Below, in pieces: positions 1 to 18,882 of a DNA stretch of 21,183 bases (positions are counted from its first letter, which is position 1; every line of letters begins with the position of its first letter). The DNA comes from a virus. The position numbers and the translations under genes are program-made. The stretch is taken from IMG/VR virus record IMGVR_UViG_3300042398_001671, positions 1 through 21,183 of that record; one strand, 5' to 3'. The notes beneath the pieces are model-generated. The model searched no databases, was not told the DNA's origin, and saw only the letters and a list, made by a program, of their open reading frames with translations.

Positions 1-5
1 TTAAT

Positions 6-2525
6 ATGAGTATTCGTTACGGAAATAAAGTTGGACCGTTAGTCTCACGTAAGTCTTCTTTTTTTAAAAAGGATAGATTTGATCGACTGCGTATTAAACA
101 ACCATCACCTACTAGCTCAACATCAAGCACTTGGACACGTCCAGCTGATTGGCTAACAATGCCGACTATAATATCTTCAGAGCAAAAAATAGCTTTGTTG
201 ATGCCAGTGTTTCCGCAACAATCTAACTTTCTCGCTTTTACAATATCTGGAGCATATACAGTTGATTGGGGTGATGGTGTAACAGAAAATGTTGCATCTG
301 GTGTTAAGGCTCAACATGAATACTCTTATACCGACCCAGATTTAAATACCACCGTTACAAGTGATGGTTATAAAATGGCAGTTGTAGTCATTACTCCTCA
401 AGCTGGTCAAAATATAACAAGTGTAGACTTTAACCAAAAATATGCATTAACAGGATCTACATTTCCTGATTCTTCTCCTATATTAGAAATAGTTTTATCT
501 TGCCCAAGTTTAACAGGTTTAACTCTTGGTAGTGCAACTGTTGCTTCTGTTTTCTGTAAAAATTTAGTTAGTTTTACTGGAGTTAATATGGGATTATTAA
601 CTAACTTATCTAATTCATTTGCAAATTTAGTTTCATTAAAAAATATATCCCTCAGCGGTACTACTAACGTTACTAATATGACAAGTGCATTTAGTGGTTG
701 TTCTAGTCTTATAAGTGTATCATTGTCTGATACAGGAAGTGTTACTAATATGACTAGTATGTTTAATAATTGCAGGTCTCTTAAAACTGTACCATTATTC
801 AATACAGCTGCTGTTACTAGTATGGTGAGCATGTTTAATTTTTGCTCTTCTCTCACAAGCGTACCATTATTTAACACAAGGATTGTGACTGATATGAATG
901 GTATGTTTGCTAGTTGCACTTCTCTCATAACTGTACCGTTATTTAACACAGTAGCTGTTAATAATATGTCTAGTATGTTTAGTAATTGCCCCTCACTTAC
1001 AAATGTACCATTATTTAATACAGTGAATGTGACTCTTATGGGAGGATCTTTTGGACCACAAGGAATGTTTTTTAATTGTAGGTCGCTTAAAAATGTACCA
1101 TTATTTGACACGTCAAAGGTGACTACTATGGCTAATATGTTTCAGAGTTGCTCTTCTCTTACAACTGTACCTCTGTTTAATACAGGGGCTGTTACTGATA
1201 TGAGTAGTATGTTTAGTAGTTGCACTTCTCTCATAACTGTACCGTTATTTAACACAGTAGCTGTTAATAATATGACTGGTATGTTTTTAGGTTGCACTTC
1301 TCTCATAACTGTACCGTTATTTAACACAGTAGCTGTTACTAGTATGGCTAATATGTTTAATGGTTGTACTGTTCTTACAACTGTACCGTTATTCAATACA
1401 GCCGCTGTTACTAGTATGCCTAATATGTTTCAGAGTTGCATTTCTCTCATAACTGTACCGTTATTCAATACAGGGGCTGTTACTAGTATGAATAGTATGT
1501 TTAGTGGTTGCTCTTCTCTTACAAGCGTACCATTATTCAATACAGGAGCTGTTACTAGTATGCCTAATATGTTTCAGAGTTGCATTTCTCTCATAACTGT
1601 ACCGTTATTCAATACAGGGGCTGTTACTAGTATGAATAGTATGTTTAATGGTTGCTCTTCTCTTACAACTGTTTCATTATTCAATACAGCAGCTGTTACT
1701 GATATGAGTAGTATGTTTAATGGTTGCATTTCTCTCATAACTGTACCGTTATTCAATACAGGGGCTGTTACTAGTATGTCTAATATGTTTAATGGTTGCA
1801 CTTTTCTTACAAGTGTACCGTTATTAATTTCAGGTGCTGGAACAAATATAGGAAAGTTTAGTGGTATTTTTGCAAATTGTATATCCCTTACAAGAGCAGC
1901 ATTAAATGGCTCAGAATATCAAATAAGTTATAGTGGTTGTAAATTATCAAAAGAAGAATTAGAATCTATATTCAATTATCTAGATACAATAGGTGCTACT
2001 TCTCAAACAATAACAGTAACAAGCAATTGGGGAGCACCGACACCTGTAACTCTTACAGGAACTACAACAGCTGGTAGCACAACAATAACAATGGCAAACA
2101 CAACTGGTATTGCTGTTGGTATGCAAATTACTGGTACTGGTTCCCCTCTTACAACAGCAAGAGCTGTGACATTCACAGACGCTGGAGATCTAGTCAACTT
2201 AGCATCACATGGTTTAAGTAATGGAGATGAAGTTTCTTTTGCAACTATAGTAACAACGACTGGTATTGTTACTAATAGAATTTATTATGTAGTCAATGCT
2301 ACAGCTGGAACATTTCAAGTAGCAGCAACTCTAGGTGGTCCAGCACTAGCATTAACGACAAACGGTTCTGGAACCTTACGCTATCGTACACAGGTTGTAT
2401 CAATTAACCCCAACGTAAGCGTCACAGTATCACGACAAATGGCTGCGGGGGGTGCAAATAGTTTAACATTTAGACAATTAAGAACTGGAACAGCCCTATT
2501 AAAAGGCTGGGCAGTAACAACATAA
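6..2525 (+). CDS. BspA/DUF285-repeat adhesin or tail-fibre protein
   Basis: The 839-residue product probably sits on the virion as a receptor-binding fibre or adhesin. It starts with a basic, Ser/Thr-rich region and then a segment with DWGDG at about residues 87-91, typical of PKD-like or DUF285-associated domains. Residues about 198-630 are some 17 tandem 24-residue units of the form VTxMxxMFxxCxSLxxVPLFNT, the BspA-type leucine-rich repeat (DUF285). The last roughly 170 residues are Gly/Thr-rich and beta-like (TTITMANTTGIAVGMQI), resembling spacer or trimerisation segments of phage fibres. It is the only long gene on the plus strand, and it converges on the head genes. The start lies 6 bases from the window edge, so its promoter and ribosome site are not visible. 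Family recognition is strong; the fibre role is inferred from phage context. No signal peptide or membrane segment is evident. Confidence 0.85.
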   Translation: MSIRYGNKVGPLVSRKSSFFKKDRFDRLRIKQPSPTSSTSSTWTRPADWLTMPTIISSEQKIALLMPVFPQQSNFLAFTISGAYTVDWGDGVTENVASGVKAQHEYSYTDPDLNTTVTSDGYKMAVVVITPQAGQNITSVDFNQKYALTGSTFPDSSPILEIVLSCPSLTGLTLGSATVASVFCKNLVSFTGVNMGLLTNLSNSFANLVSLKNISLSGTTNVTNMTSAFSGCSSLISVSLSDTGSVTNMTSMFNNCRSLKTVPLFNTAAVTSMVSMFNFCSSLTSVPLFNTRIVTDMNGMFASCTSLITVPLFNTVAVNNMSSMFSNCPSLTNVPLFNTVNVTLMGGSFGPQGMFFNCRSLKNVPLFDTSKVTTMANMFQSCSSLTTVPLFNTGAVTDMSSMFSSCTSLITVPLFNTVAVNNMTGMFLGCTSLITVPLFNTVAVTSMANMFNGCTVLTTVPLFNTAAVTSMPNMFQSCISLITVPLFNTGAVTSMNSMFSGCSSLTSVPLFNTGAVTSMPNMFQSCISLITVPLFNTGAVTSMNSMFNGCSSLTTVSLFNTAAVTDMSSMFNGCISLITVPLFNTGAVTSMSNMFNGCTFLTSVPLLISGAGTNIGKFSGIFANCISLTRAALNGSEYQISYSGCKLSKEELESIFNYLDTIGATSQTITVTSNWGAPTPVTLTGTTTAGSTTITMANTTGIAVGMQITGTGSPLTTARAVTFTDAGDLVNLASHGLSNGDEVSFATIVTTTGIVTNRIYYVVNATAGTFQVAATLGGPALALTTNGSGTLRYRTQVVSINPNVSVTVSRQMAAGGANSLTFRQLRTGTALLKGWAVTT
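600..1880 (+). repeat. Tandem 72-bp coding repeats (DUF285 units)
   Basis: About 17 in-frame copies of a 72-bp unit encode the 24-residue adhesin repeats. Most units differ by scattered substitutions, and one unit near 1030-1080 carries a short in-frame insertion (GPQG region). A two-unit block is nearly duplicated: positions 1404-1503 and 1548-1647 are identical over 100 nt at exactly 144-nt spacing, followed by one mismatch and 20 more matching bases. The frame is kept throughout, which fits copy-number change by recombination or slippage in a protein under selection. Confidence 0.9.
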
Positions 2526-14908: not shown

Positions 14909-15910
14909 TTATTTTAGGTTAGTTTGCTCCTTTATCCAGTGGTAGACAGTCTCAAGGCCCCTTTTAAGTGGGTAATTAGGGGACCATCCGATTGATTGTT
15001 GTATGAGTTTGTTACAGGAGTTTCTCCCACGGACACCTAACGGCGCATTTAACTTATAATTACGTACAAGACTTTTATTTTCAAAGCTACAAGCAATATC
15101 GACAAGATCATTAATTGTAACCATTTCTTCTGATCCTATATTAACTGGTTCGCTAAATTCCGATTCCATTAATTTTCTAATACCCTCTATACACTCATCA
15201 ATATACAAGAACGATCGTGTTTGCTCACCGTCACCCCAAATTTCAATTTCTGAAGCAGCCTCAATAACCTTTCTACAGATAGCAGCAGGTGCCTTTTCTT
15301 TACCACCTTTCCATGTACCAAGTGGTCCAAAAATATTATGAAATCTTGCAATGCGTATGTTTAAGTTATAGTTACGCTTATAAGCTAAAAACAAACGCTC
15401 ACTAAAAAGCTTCTCCCAACCATATTCACTATCTGGGTTAGCAGGGTAAGCTGAATTTTCAGAACAGTTAGGATTGTTAGGATCTATTTGGTTATGCTCT
15501 GGATACATACAGGCGGAGGAAGAATAAAAAAGTTTTTGAACTTTATATCGTACTGCGGCGTCAGCAACATTAAGATTAATAATTGCAGAGTTATGCATCA
15601 CATTTGCATCATTTTCACCTGAGAAAATATAACCAGCGCCTCCCATGTCAGCAGCTAGCTGATAGACTTCATCAAAACCTTTATTCTCCATACTTCTTTG
15701 AAACGGGGCGAAAAATACTTTATTTATTAGAGTAGTTTCTTTAAGATCACCTAATATAAAGTCATCTGCGTTAGATTTTTCTTGATATTCTGGCGCTTTA
15801 AGATCTACGCCTCTTACCCAATAACCTTCCAATTTAAGGCGATTAACTAGGTGATTACCGATAAATCCTCCTGCTCCCAATACTAATGCTGTTTTTTGTT
15901 GGTTATTCAT
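14909..15910 (-). CDS. GDP-mannose 3,5-epimerase (GME-like)
   Basis: This short-chain dehydrogenase-type epimerase would turn GDP-D-mannose into GDP-L-galactose (with GDP-L-gulose as by-product). The 333 residues start with the NAD-binding GAGGFIG loop (12-18). They continue with LAADMGGAGYI (86-95), SSACMYPE with the catalytic Cys134, the YxxxK pair at Tyr163 and Lys167, and GTWKGGKEKAPAA with the catalytic Lys206. QTRSFLYIDECIEG and GVRGRNS complete a match to the plant GME enzyme over its full length. Other NDP-sugar epimerases lack the Cys and GTWKGG blocks. It lies 3 nt before the DUF366-like gene and is the metabolic entry of the glycosyltransferase cluster. It has a duplicated 3' end elsewhere in the window (17311-17389). 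Confidence 0.93.
   Translation of the reverse strand: MNNQQKTALVLGAGGFIGNHLVNRLKLEGYWVRGVDLKAPEYQEKSNADDFILGDLKETTLINKVFFAPFQRSMENKGFDEVYQLAADMGGAGYIFSGENDANVMHNSAIINLNVADAAVRYKVQKLFYSSSACMYPEHNQIDPNNPNCSENSAYPANPDSEYGWEKLFSERLFLAYKRNYNLNIRIARFHNIFGPLGTWKGGKEKAPAAICRKVIEAASEIEIWGDGEQTRSFLYIDECIEGIRKLMESEFSEPVNIGSEEMVTINDLVDIACSFENKSLVRNYKLNAPLGVRGRNSCNKLIQQSIGWSPNYPLKRGLETVYHWIKEQTNLK
14922..15000 (-). repeat. Epimerase 3' end, original copy of a 79-bp direct repeat
   Basis: These 79 bp encode about the last 28 residues of the epimerase (from SIGWSPNYP to the final QT). They recur at 17311-17389 in the same orientation with 77 of 79 matches. The copy here lies in an intact gene and is presumably the parent; the other copy lies in an intergenic gap. 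Confidence 0.93.
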
Positions 15911-15933
15911 ATGCTTTTTTTGTTTCTCATAAT

Positions 15934-16620
15934 TTAGTTTAAAATAGATTTACATTTTGCTATAAAATTAGTGCTACTGTTACGTATTTCGAATTGATGA
16001 TATAACACATCCATATTGTTATGATTATATGTTGTGCCGATACCAAAATATCTATTATCTTTTAATTTCCATTTTGGAATTTCAGAAGATTTTGCCTTAA
16101 AAAGCTTTACATTAATATTATTTTCTTCACACAACCATGTTAATTCTTCTCCAACATCACTTCTATTACCTTGTTGCATTAATGATGGATACACTAGATT
16201 TTTAAATAATGCTGTAGGAAAAGCCAAGCATGCTGGTCCTGCATAAAGGTGATTTTGTGGATTACAATTACACATCTGTTCTATACCTATAATACAATCA
16301 TCATTTTTTAATTCATCCAGAATTATATCATATATATTAGAAACAAGAGGTATACAATCAACGTCAAAAAAGATGATATATTTACTGTTACAATTTTTAG
16401 CAGTCTGGGTTAAAAAGTCTCCATGGTTAGAGTCAATGTTAACTTGAGTAATAGGTAGATTTAATTTTTGAAAAACTAAACGTTGTAGTTTGCATACCTC
16501 ATACGATACGTTTGAATTAGCGTATGAAAAAGCTTCAAATAAGTTTGTATTAGTGCCAGTCATGTAATCTAGTATGTTGGTTAATAATAGTTTTAAGATT
16601 CGTCTTATACTCTTCACCAT
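15934..16620 (-). CDS. Putative glycosyltransferase with DxD motif
   Basis: The 228-residue product has FFDVDCIPL with the DxD pair at Asp86 and Asp88, a nucleotide-sugar metal site typical of GT-A enzymes. GPACLAFPTALF and VGEELTWLCEENN follow it and look like the acceptor side. I do not assign a CAZy family. The first 19 codons (MVKSIRRILK and on) are the same DNA as the end of the truncated FkbM-like remnant in another frame, so the true start may be the ATG at 16563 (MTGTNTNLFEAF). No strong ribosome site decides. It lies between the GT25-like gene and the epimerase in the sugar operon. Confidence 0.75.
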   Translation of the reverse strand: MVKSIRRILKLLLTNILDYMTGTNTNLFEAFSYANSNVSYEVCKLQRLVFQKLNLPITQVNIDSNHGDFLTQTAKNCNSKYIIFFDVDCIPLVSNIYDIILDELKNDDCIIGIEQMCNCNPQNHLYAGPACLAFPTALFKNLVYPSLMQQGNRSDVGEELTWLCEENNINVKLFKAKSSEIPKWKLKDNRYFGIGTTYNHNNMDVLYHQFEIRNSSTNFIAKCKSILN

Positions 16621-16657
16621 AATGAAAGCCGCAATCGATAAATATATTTTTTTTCAT
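16550..16657 (-). pseudogene. Truncated FkbM-methyltransferase-like 5' remnant
   Basis: An ATG-started frame of 35 codons begins MKKNIFIDCGFHYGEEYK, like the SAM-binding start of phage FkbM-type methyltransferases (IFIDCGxxxGE). It stops with TAA at 16550 and has no continuation. It starts 4 nt after the GT25-like stop codon, overlaps the first codons of the next glycosyltransferase in another frame, and so looks like the broken 5' end of a lost gene fused to its neighbour. A small functional peptide is possible but less likely. Confidence 0.55.
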
Positions 16658-16661
16658 AAAT

Positions 16662-17288
16662 TTAAATTAAAGTAGTCCAAATATTTTCCGCTGATTTTTG
16701 TGTTAACCCTGGTTCTGTCCACCCTGAACTTATTATTTTTTTAGATATAATCTCATTATAGAGATGATCTATAGGTTGATTATAGTGATAGTTGTCAAGT
16801 ACTAATCTAGCTCCTTGCTGACTTATTATGTATGCATGAGTGCACCTTGAGCTACAATTACTCGAAAAATAAGAAATTTTATCCTGTGTCTTATTAGCTC
16901 GTGGAATTGTATATTTACCTACCCATACGTCTCCAATCCAAAGCACATCTCCTTGAGATGATTTTGTTTCAAGAATACTTTGCTCAAGAAATTGATGTGT
17001 GTTGGATACACTCTGTAAGTTTACATCATCTTCAAAAACTATACCGTATTCGATATTATTTTGTACTATTTGCTCTAAAGCGTATTTATGTTTAAGAGAA
17101 AGAGATAATTCACTACGTTTTATATTAGTAAAAATATTGCTGTCTATTTCTGACGGTAAAAATGATTCTACCCACTCCATCTGATATGGAAGATTAGCAA
17201 AGTTTAAATCTTTTTGTAATTCTAATTTACGATCAACAGCAGGTGTATGATGAAGAATAAAAATTTTTATTTGAGTGTTATCATACAT
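16662..17288 (-). CDS. Glycosyltransferase family 25-like (LPS biosynthesis type)
   Basis: The 208-residue product has the GT25 layout: an N-terminal IKIFILHHTPAVDRKLELQ block (residues 7-25) and the FEDDV acidic motif at 85-89. A C-terminal part follows with THAYIISQQGARLVLDNYH, then PIDHLYNEI and a late EPGLTQ. GT25 enzymes add galactose or similar sugars to lipo-oligosaccharide or proteins; the substrate here is unknown. The ATG at 17288 lies directly after the chimeric remnant segment, so the upstream sequence of this gene has been replaced by recombination. Length is shorter than many cellular GT25 proteins (about 250), as is usual for phage versions. Confidence 0.82.
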   Translation of the reverse strand: MYDNTQIKIFILHHTPAVDRKLELQKDLNFANLPYQMEWVESFLPSEIDSNIFTNIKRSELSLSLKHKYALEQIVQNNIEYGIVFEDDVNLQSVSNTHQFLEQSILETKSSQGDVLWIGDVWVGKYTIPRANKTQDKISYFSSNCSSRCTHAYIISQQGARLVLDNYHYNQPIDHLYNEIISKKIISSGWTEPGLTQKSAENIWTTLI

Positions 17289-17389
17289 TTTTTAACATAA
17301 TATGTGGTTTGTTTGATCCTTTATCCAGTGGTAGACAGTCTCAAGGCCCTTTTTAAGTGGGTAATTAGGGGACCATCCGATTGATTGTT
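17289..17389 (-). pseudogene. Chimeric duplicate of two gene 3' ends (recombination scar)
   Basis: This intergenic segment is built of two pieces. Positions 17311-17389 match the epimerase 3' end (14922-15000) at 77 of 79 bases. Positions 17289-17315 match the 3' end of the glycosyltransferase gene at 18126-18152 over 27 of 27 bases. The two matches share GTTTG at 17311-17315, a 5-bp microhomology at the joint. In the epimerase frame it reads a stop, then QSIGWSPNYPLKKGLETVYH and onward, and stops again after LC. It has no start codon and is not a gene. Confidence 0.92.
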
Positions 17390-17394
17390 ATATA

Positions 17395-18120: not shown

Positions 18121-18882
18121 TTAACTTTTTAACATAATATGTGGTTTGTTTGTTTTATTAGATCTTAACAGATAATCATAATACCATGTATTTTCATCTT
18201 CTAATTGTATCTGTTCCCATATAGGTTTTATATTTGTAAAGTATAAAGCAATTATACCTTGATCATTTGTTTTTGAGATTTTACATTCTTCCGCTAAACC
18301 TACTAAATCACTAAATGTATTATTATCTATAATAGACGTATCATATAGCATGATAGTAGTTTGCGGAAAATCGATATAAAAATTATATTTTTTATTTAAG
18401 TCAAAAAATATAAAGTCTTCTTTTATAAACTGTGTTGTGAGGTTATAGCTATAATCTGGATAAGCGTCAGAATGCGCTAAAAATTTGCCTTTTTTATAAG
18501 CATTAATAATAGGCATTACAGAGCTATATATTTTCATTCCTGCGTCGAGATAAAATATATAATTCCATTTTTTAAAAAAGGTATTAAACAAATTTAACTT
18601 ATGATATTGGAACTTCTTACGACGCCAGTGTTCTTCCCGTGGCATTGTGTTGAATTTTCCGTTAAAATCATCTGAAAAAATAATATCAGGAAAATATTTT
18701 ATAATAATATTATTTGACTCTAACAGTGGATGATTTAGTTTATCAGAATCTTTTAAATCATCACCTATAACAACACATATATCCCCTATGTATTCATAGG
18801 AAAGCATACCCTCAAGAGTATGTATCAATCGATCAAAAAAAGCATCGTTTGTTACAAGAACTGTACATATATTATTAACCAT
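18121..18882 (-). CDS. Putative glycosyltransferase (GT8/GT-A type)
   Basis: The 253-residue product has an alternating hydrophobic N-terminal ICTVLVTNDAFFD, and KWNYIFYLDAGMKIYSS near residues 105-120, where LDAG takes the place of the DxD motif. The short helix-rich tail ends in NKPHIMLKS. This layout is common in phage and LPS glycosyltransferases of the GT-A fold; I do not assign a family with confidence. Its ATG overlaps the end of the exostosin-like gene by 8 nt, indicating coupled translation. The 3' end is the parent of a 27-bp repeat found at 17289-17315. Confidence 0.65.
   Translation of the reverse strand: MVNNICTVLVTNDAFFDRLIHTLEGMLSYEYIGDICVVIGDDLKDSDKLNHPLLESNNIIIKYFPDIIFSDDFNGKFNTMPREEHWRRKKFQYHKLNLFNTFFKKWNYIFYLDAGMKIYSSVMPIINAYKKGKFLAHSDAYPDYSYNLTTQFIKEDFIFFDLNKKYNFYIDFPQTTIMLYDTSIIDNNTFSDLVGLAEECKISKTNDQGIIALYFTNIKPIWEQIQLEDENTWYYDYLLRSNKTNKPHIMLKS
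18126..18152 (-). repeat. 27-bp direct repeat, parent copy in glycosyltransferase 3' end
   Basis: These 27 bases encode the last residues of the glycosyltransferase (NKPHIMLK). They recur exactly at 17289-17315, in front of the GT25-like gene. The two copies flank the methyltransferase gene and the epimerase remnant as direct repeats. Confidence 0.9.

Follow-up and report, generated by a model that had tools for sequence, protein, structure and literature searches.

What does a 35-codon reading frame with the start of an FkbM-type methyltransferase represent when it lies between two genes of a phage glycosylation cassette? The window analysed here is the whole record of an uncultured virus, 21,183 bases long. 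It carries T4-like genes for the major head protein, head maturation protease, portal and tail sheath stabilizer, together with a run of sugar and methyl-transfer genes on the minus strand from about 14.9 to 21.2 kb, in which the frame lies. Elsewhere in the window, an 840-codon ORF with DUF285 repeats (3-2525, plus strand; PF03382, E 1.4e-73; PHROGs matches of unknown function) adjoins the minus-strand T4-like head genes and possibly encodes an adhesin or fibre. The original prediction read the 35-codon frame as an FkbM start fused out of frame to the following glycosyltransferase. Our comparisons of sequences point instead, with a probability of roughly 0.86, to an FkbM gene that underwent an in-frame internal deletion, keeping its own start and stop, with the start ATG of the glycosyltransferase at 16563 placed within its last codons. 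The features on which this reading is built are as follows.

16662..17288, minus strand: glycosyltransferase family 25 (GT25) gene, upstream of the stump (PF01755, E 6.6e-10).
16550..16657, minus strand: FkbM-type methyltransferase stump of 35 codons, with ~16 N-terminal and ~15-19 C-terminal codons in frame, plus stop (FkbM start profile, C-terminal matrix, both-ends test).
16597..16612, minus strand: approximate internal deletion joint, at stump residues ~16-20 (an estimate from the reach of the N-terminal profile and the onset of positive C-terminal matrix scores).
16550..16563, minus strand: 14-nt overlap of the stump stop with the glycosyltransferase start, ATGACTGGCACTAA (same overlap length in loci L062, L073 and L075).
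15934..16563, minus strand: glycosyltransferase of 209 codons, probable true start ATG 16563, GT-A-like fold, DVDC motif (relatives' starts, alignment, structure model).
16564..16620, minus strand: spurious in-frame extension of the glycosyltransferase ORF, 19 codons of stump DNA in another frame (absent from 8/8 related contigs; mean pLDDT 52-59).

The frame containing IFIDCGFHYGE was confirmed in the ORF list at its predicted length and place: the GT25-like ORF ends at 16662, so that the stump ATG at 16657 lies 4 nt past the GT25 stop. Its translation reads MKKNIFIDCGFHYGEEYKTNLKTIINQHTRLHDWH, in which the FkbM-type motif FIDCGxHxG[D/E] occupies residues 6-15, with the frame in the expected gene slot. 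The proposal that this peptide is an FkbM start was borne out by the motif and by a profile match of 26.9 bits, a score that is partly circular because the profile seeds were picked by that same motif. The match extends to residue 25 at most and is strong only to about residue 16. Intact phage proteins starting with FIDCGxHxG[DE] carried PF05050 in all three cases scanned (L013, L004 and L017). Two degenerate FkbM-start patterns gave no match in viral contigs, and a looser pattern gave 16 loci. Pfam and PHROGs searches with the 35 residues returned no match, and tblastn of the same residues against 50,697 phage records returned chance matches only (E 6-7); three intact FkbM proteins searched against these records gave none, two weak and no matches, respectively.

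The other end of the frame is equally informative. Rather than breaking off inside the next gene, as had been proposed, the frame closes with an FkbM-like C-terminus, NLKTIINQHTRLHDWH, and a stop that overlaps the next start by 14 nt. The endings ..DWH, ..EWH and similar ones recur in many intact FkbM proteins, for instance GVNLHDWH in L047 against TRLHDWH in the stump (compare also L078, L070 and L017); [DE]WH ends occur in 10/58 FkbM proteins and in 0/820 control ORFs. We built a C-terminal matrix from the final 16 residues of 58 non-redundant FkbM proteins whose ends had not been used to collect them: 97 matches gave 63 distinct proteins of 150-260 aa, with the window and its copy L002 left out, and 58 remained once redundancy over the last 40 residues had been filtered out. 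The stump scores 15.4 bits against this matrix, whose length of 16 was chosen after the resemblance had been noticed; the leave-one-out median of the FkbM proteins themselves is 11.9. That score was reached by none of 820 non-FkbM ORFs of at least 100 aa, by none of 3585 short ORFs (28-60 aa) and by 18 of 200,000 shuffles. Most of the match comes from four of the last five residues (L, H, W and H) and from I at position 5 of 16, and the matrix turns positive from L21 of the stump, while residues 17-24 have no clear match to anything. In a blind test of both ends among 738 long ORF products, the stump picked the FkbM protein of L078 with 91 points (54+37); none of 500 shuffles scored above 41, and the runner-up among the 25 candidates reached 38. 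The C-terminal matrix and the both-ends test are not circular, and since both ends are FkbM-like, the stump would be an FkbM gene without its middle.

These observations bear directly on the idea of an out-of-frame junction near 16563 between an FkbM start and the glycosyltransferase, which would have given the latter a new start or N-terminus. The FkbM start is real, identity to a related locus steps up near 16550-16563 and homologues lack the 19-codon extension, all as this idea would have it; however, the frame ends like an FkbM protein with its own stop, which a chance readthrough would not do, and the glycosyltransferases of relatives start at positions equivalent to the vicinity of 16563. 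We therefore consider an out-of-frame fusion very unlikely. Another candidate, a joint after HDW with the whole frame as an N-terminal FkbM part, was dropped once FkbM ends had been compared. Because the FkbM C-terminus and stop are retained, the joint of the internal deletion is placed inside the stump, near 16597-16612. In the deletion reading, an FkbM-type methyltransferase gene would formerly have stood between the GT25 and glycosyltransferase genes, and an in-frame loss of about 150-165 codons, as judged from intact relatives of mostly 180-210 codons, would have joined ~16 start codons to the last 15-19 codons and the native stop. We infer this parent gene, since none of the fetched loci (17 with GT25 and 8 with the glycosyltransferase) has an intact FkbM gene between the two.

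The stump also explains how the glycosyltransferase came to be called too long. The called ORF (15934..16620) has 228 codons, and its first 19 were rightly suspected of sharing DNA with the stump in another frame and of being foreign to the family. The glycosyltransferase of L001, a near-twin contig, starts at ATG 3010, equivalent to 16563 in the window; together with the lack of the extension in relatives, this marks the 19 codons as spurious, and ATG 16620 stands in the same open frame because the stump DNA happens to be open there. Homologues do not share the MVKSIRRILK start, and the new N-terminus once envisaged for the glycosyltransferase gives way to an ordinary start at 16563. That the 228-codon ORF is the true gene, with a new N-terminal helix made from stump DNA, would fit the open frame and a helix predicted at residues 2-20 of the structure model; we regard it as highly improbable, as the extension occurs in 0/8 related contigs, mean pLDDT is 59 and 52 in the first two ten-residue blocks and below 50 at residues 17-24, and most VIA alignment rows begin at residues 22-28, with a few starting at residues 1-15. 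The tblastn alignment of L026 begins at residue 5 of the extended ORF but runs across a stop codon of the preceding gene, and the resemblance of the extension to the end of that gene was set aside as chance, without a statistic. Starts inside FkbM ends are common: in 23/63 intact genes, the FkbM end contains the first ATG of the following long ORF, and the overlap is exactly 14 nt in three (L062, L073 and L075), these overlaps being upper limits because the most upstream ATG was taken. The FkbM gene of L073 is intact and closes with ..NLYEWH, its last 14 nt, stop codon included, being shared with the following ORF, presumably the start of a transaldolase. In practical terms, mechanical ORF calling makes this glycosyltransferase 19 residues too long.

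The structure model of the glycosyltransferase has a mean pLDDT of 88.1 and a GT-A-like fold. The best Foldseek match was Mimivirus R699 (E 7.1e-6), with nucleotidyltransferases of related fold also listed; VIA matches were mostly glycosyltransferases (Z 10.4-12.2, rmsd 2.8-4.3 Å over 144-191 residues), the best row, STIV A197, being tied with others. The acidic D-x-D-type motif reads DVDC, and D86 and D88 are invariant in 8 sequences. A Pfam search at E 0.1 returned no match for 15934-16563, so only a GT-A-like fold is claimed here, with no family name; matches of the glycosyltransferase profile to PDB sequences did not rise above chance level. The genome-contig scan yielded a single match, a distant relative (L045, 33%) on an Actinomycetota MAG contig.

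Relatives of the glycosyltransferase provide snapshots of the same slot. The 8 related contigs amount to about 6 independent viruses, since several loci are the same or near-identical (L001/L020/L023; L021/L022/L024/L025; L026/L031; L027/L032; L028/L029). In L021/L022 and L027, GT25 and the glycosyltransferase are adjacent without a stump and are followed by a methyltransferase of 193-220 codons, and in L026 another gene of 330 codons lies between them. L001 holds a more decayed stump, YKKNIFIDRIK*KTKLHD*Y* in register (asterisks, stops), in which TAT replaces ATG, two internal stops interrupt the frame and 15 codons fewer remain; the upstream part of its tail agrees at 15/24 nt, not above chance alone, so that the register rests on the last codons. 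This copy, without ATG and with its internal stops, speaks against a conserved stand-alone peptide of 35 residues. It also bears on whether the stump arose artificially when two metagenomic sequences were put together: the status of the window as the record of an uncultured virus speaks for this, but L001, a different IMG/VR record, has a related stump between the same two genes, which leaves an assembly chimera barely credible. The presence of a stump, a decayed stump, no stump or another gene among relatives fits a slot where genes come and go.

Comparison of the window with L001 adds a second event. Identity jumps near 16563 from about 80% to 99%: identical, synonymous and nonsynonymous codons number 127/35/45 in GT25 (80 of 207 differing) and 201/3/5 in the glycosyltransferase (8 of 209 differing). 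As only 3 of the 8 glycosyltransferase differences are synonymous, we infer that the identity step reflects recent exchange and not selection; the glycosyltransferase gene was probably exchanged by homologous recombination, with one edge at the stump. The second recombination joint originally placed near 16563 is thus retained as an abrupt change of identity to L001 near 16563/16550, while the deletion joint itself lies elsewhere, at 16597-16612. The tract shared with L001 extends into the beginning of the next methyltransferase and no further; the window retains a few codons of that gene and then jumps to the epimerase. The locus is of interest as an exchange site, with one gene 99% identical between phages whose compared neighbours are clearly more diverged. 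Within GT25 (16662-17288 against L001 2336-2959), identity ranges from 37/60 to 58/60 per 60-column block, and this unevenness suggests that the GT25 gene may itself be mosaic.

Further gene ends lie nearby in the same cassette.

15907..15930, minus strand: mini-ORF MRNKKSI (7 residues plus stop, 8 codons), made of the opening codons of the next methyltransferase (MT213 in L001) followed by a joint.
17289..17315, minus strand: tail of a homologue of the gene at 18121-18882, left ahead of GT25 (27/27 nt identical to that gene's own tail).
17295..17393, minus strand: tail belonging to a second nucleotide-sugar epimerase and continuing into the 17289..17315 tail (near-identical to that of the intact epimerase at 14909-15910).

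The MT213 gene of L001, from 3643, starts MRNKTLTEIG, and the mini-ORF begins alike; its TGA and the epimerase ATG form a 4-nt overlap, and the mini-ORF is perhaps a second two-ended stump. In L001, the gene that precedes GT25 genuinely ends with the 17289..17315 tail. The two tails at 17289-17393 on the minus strand share a CAAAC-type sequence at their joint. With an epimerase tail, the tail of the gene before GT25 and a few methyltransferase codons, the cassette is full of gene ends.

The overlap of the stump with the glycosyltransferase raises the possibility of translational coupling, in which the stump would be translated and ribosomes ending on it would probably restart on the glycosyltransferase at ATG 16563. 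In the reporter work of PMC10666635, coupling in two pairs of E. coli genes needs no more than the last 15 nt of the upstream gene, and it drops sharply with distance. A stump kept as a leader mini-gene, with GT25, stump and glycosyltransferase in series and the native stop preserving termination-reinitiation, would be compatible with the internal deletion. In its favour are those short 3' ends, an in-frame deletion and an open stump whose start lies 4 nt past the GT25 stop and whose stop reaches 14 nt into the glycosyltransferase; we nevertheless judge such retention unlikely, because chance alone gives an in-frame deletion one time in three, no second two-ended stump appeared among the 25 mini-ORF candidates, and in L001 the stump lacks an ATG and has in-frame stops while the glycosyltransferase is still intact. 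Since the L001 stump is untranslatable from an ATG, coupling does not seem indispensable there. It is a still more doubtful generalization that tightly overlapped glycosylation cassettes favour deletions that leave an open frame from start to stop, with such 'stub genes' serving as translational bridges that deliver ribosomes to the start of the overlapping gene downstream.

How does this arrangement compare with known systems? As in the short overlapping gene pairs with termination-reinitiation of PMC10666635, the upstream stop overlaps the downstream start; unlike those pairs, the overlap is 14 nt and not the common 4 or 1, and coupling here is putative. Intact phage FkbM proteins of PF05050 (Methyltransf_21), such as those of L013, L017, L047 and L078, start with FIDCGxHxGE and end with ..[DE]WH before the stop, as the stump does, although not every copy has both. 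The SAM-binding and catalytic middle of FkbM is wholly missing from the stump, whose 35 residues lack the full domain with its central [DN]IEG[AS]E region and have no Pfam match; the stump therefore cannot be an active enzyme and is a relic, not a member enzyme. Gene remnants in phage genomes are left by mosaic exchange and deletion, a pseudogene by internal deletion being one form. The biology is accordingly ordinary: a two-ended gene relic of gene decay and phage cassette turnover, with no new system. Its value lies in showing one clear gene-loss step in a phage glycosylation cassette, with intermediates across contigs (another gene, stump, decayed stump, no stump). As in other remnants of this kind, gene ends stand between intact genes and neighbours are swapped among relatives; in contrast to the usual ones, this stump retains a single open frame bounded by its native start and native stop, and it thereby upsets the prediction of where the following gene begins.
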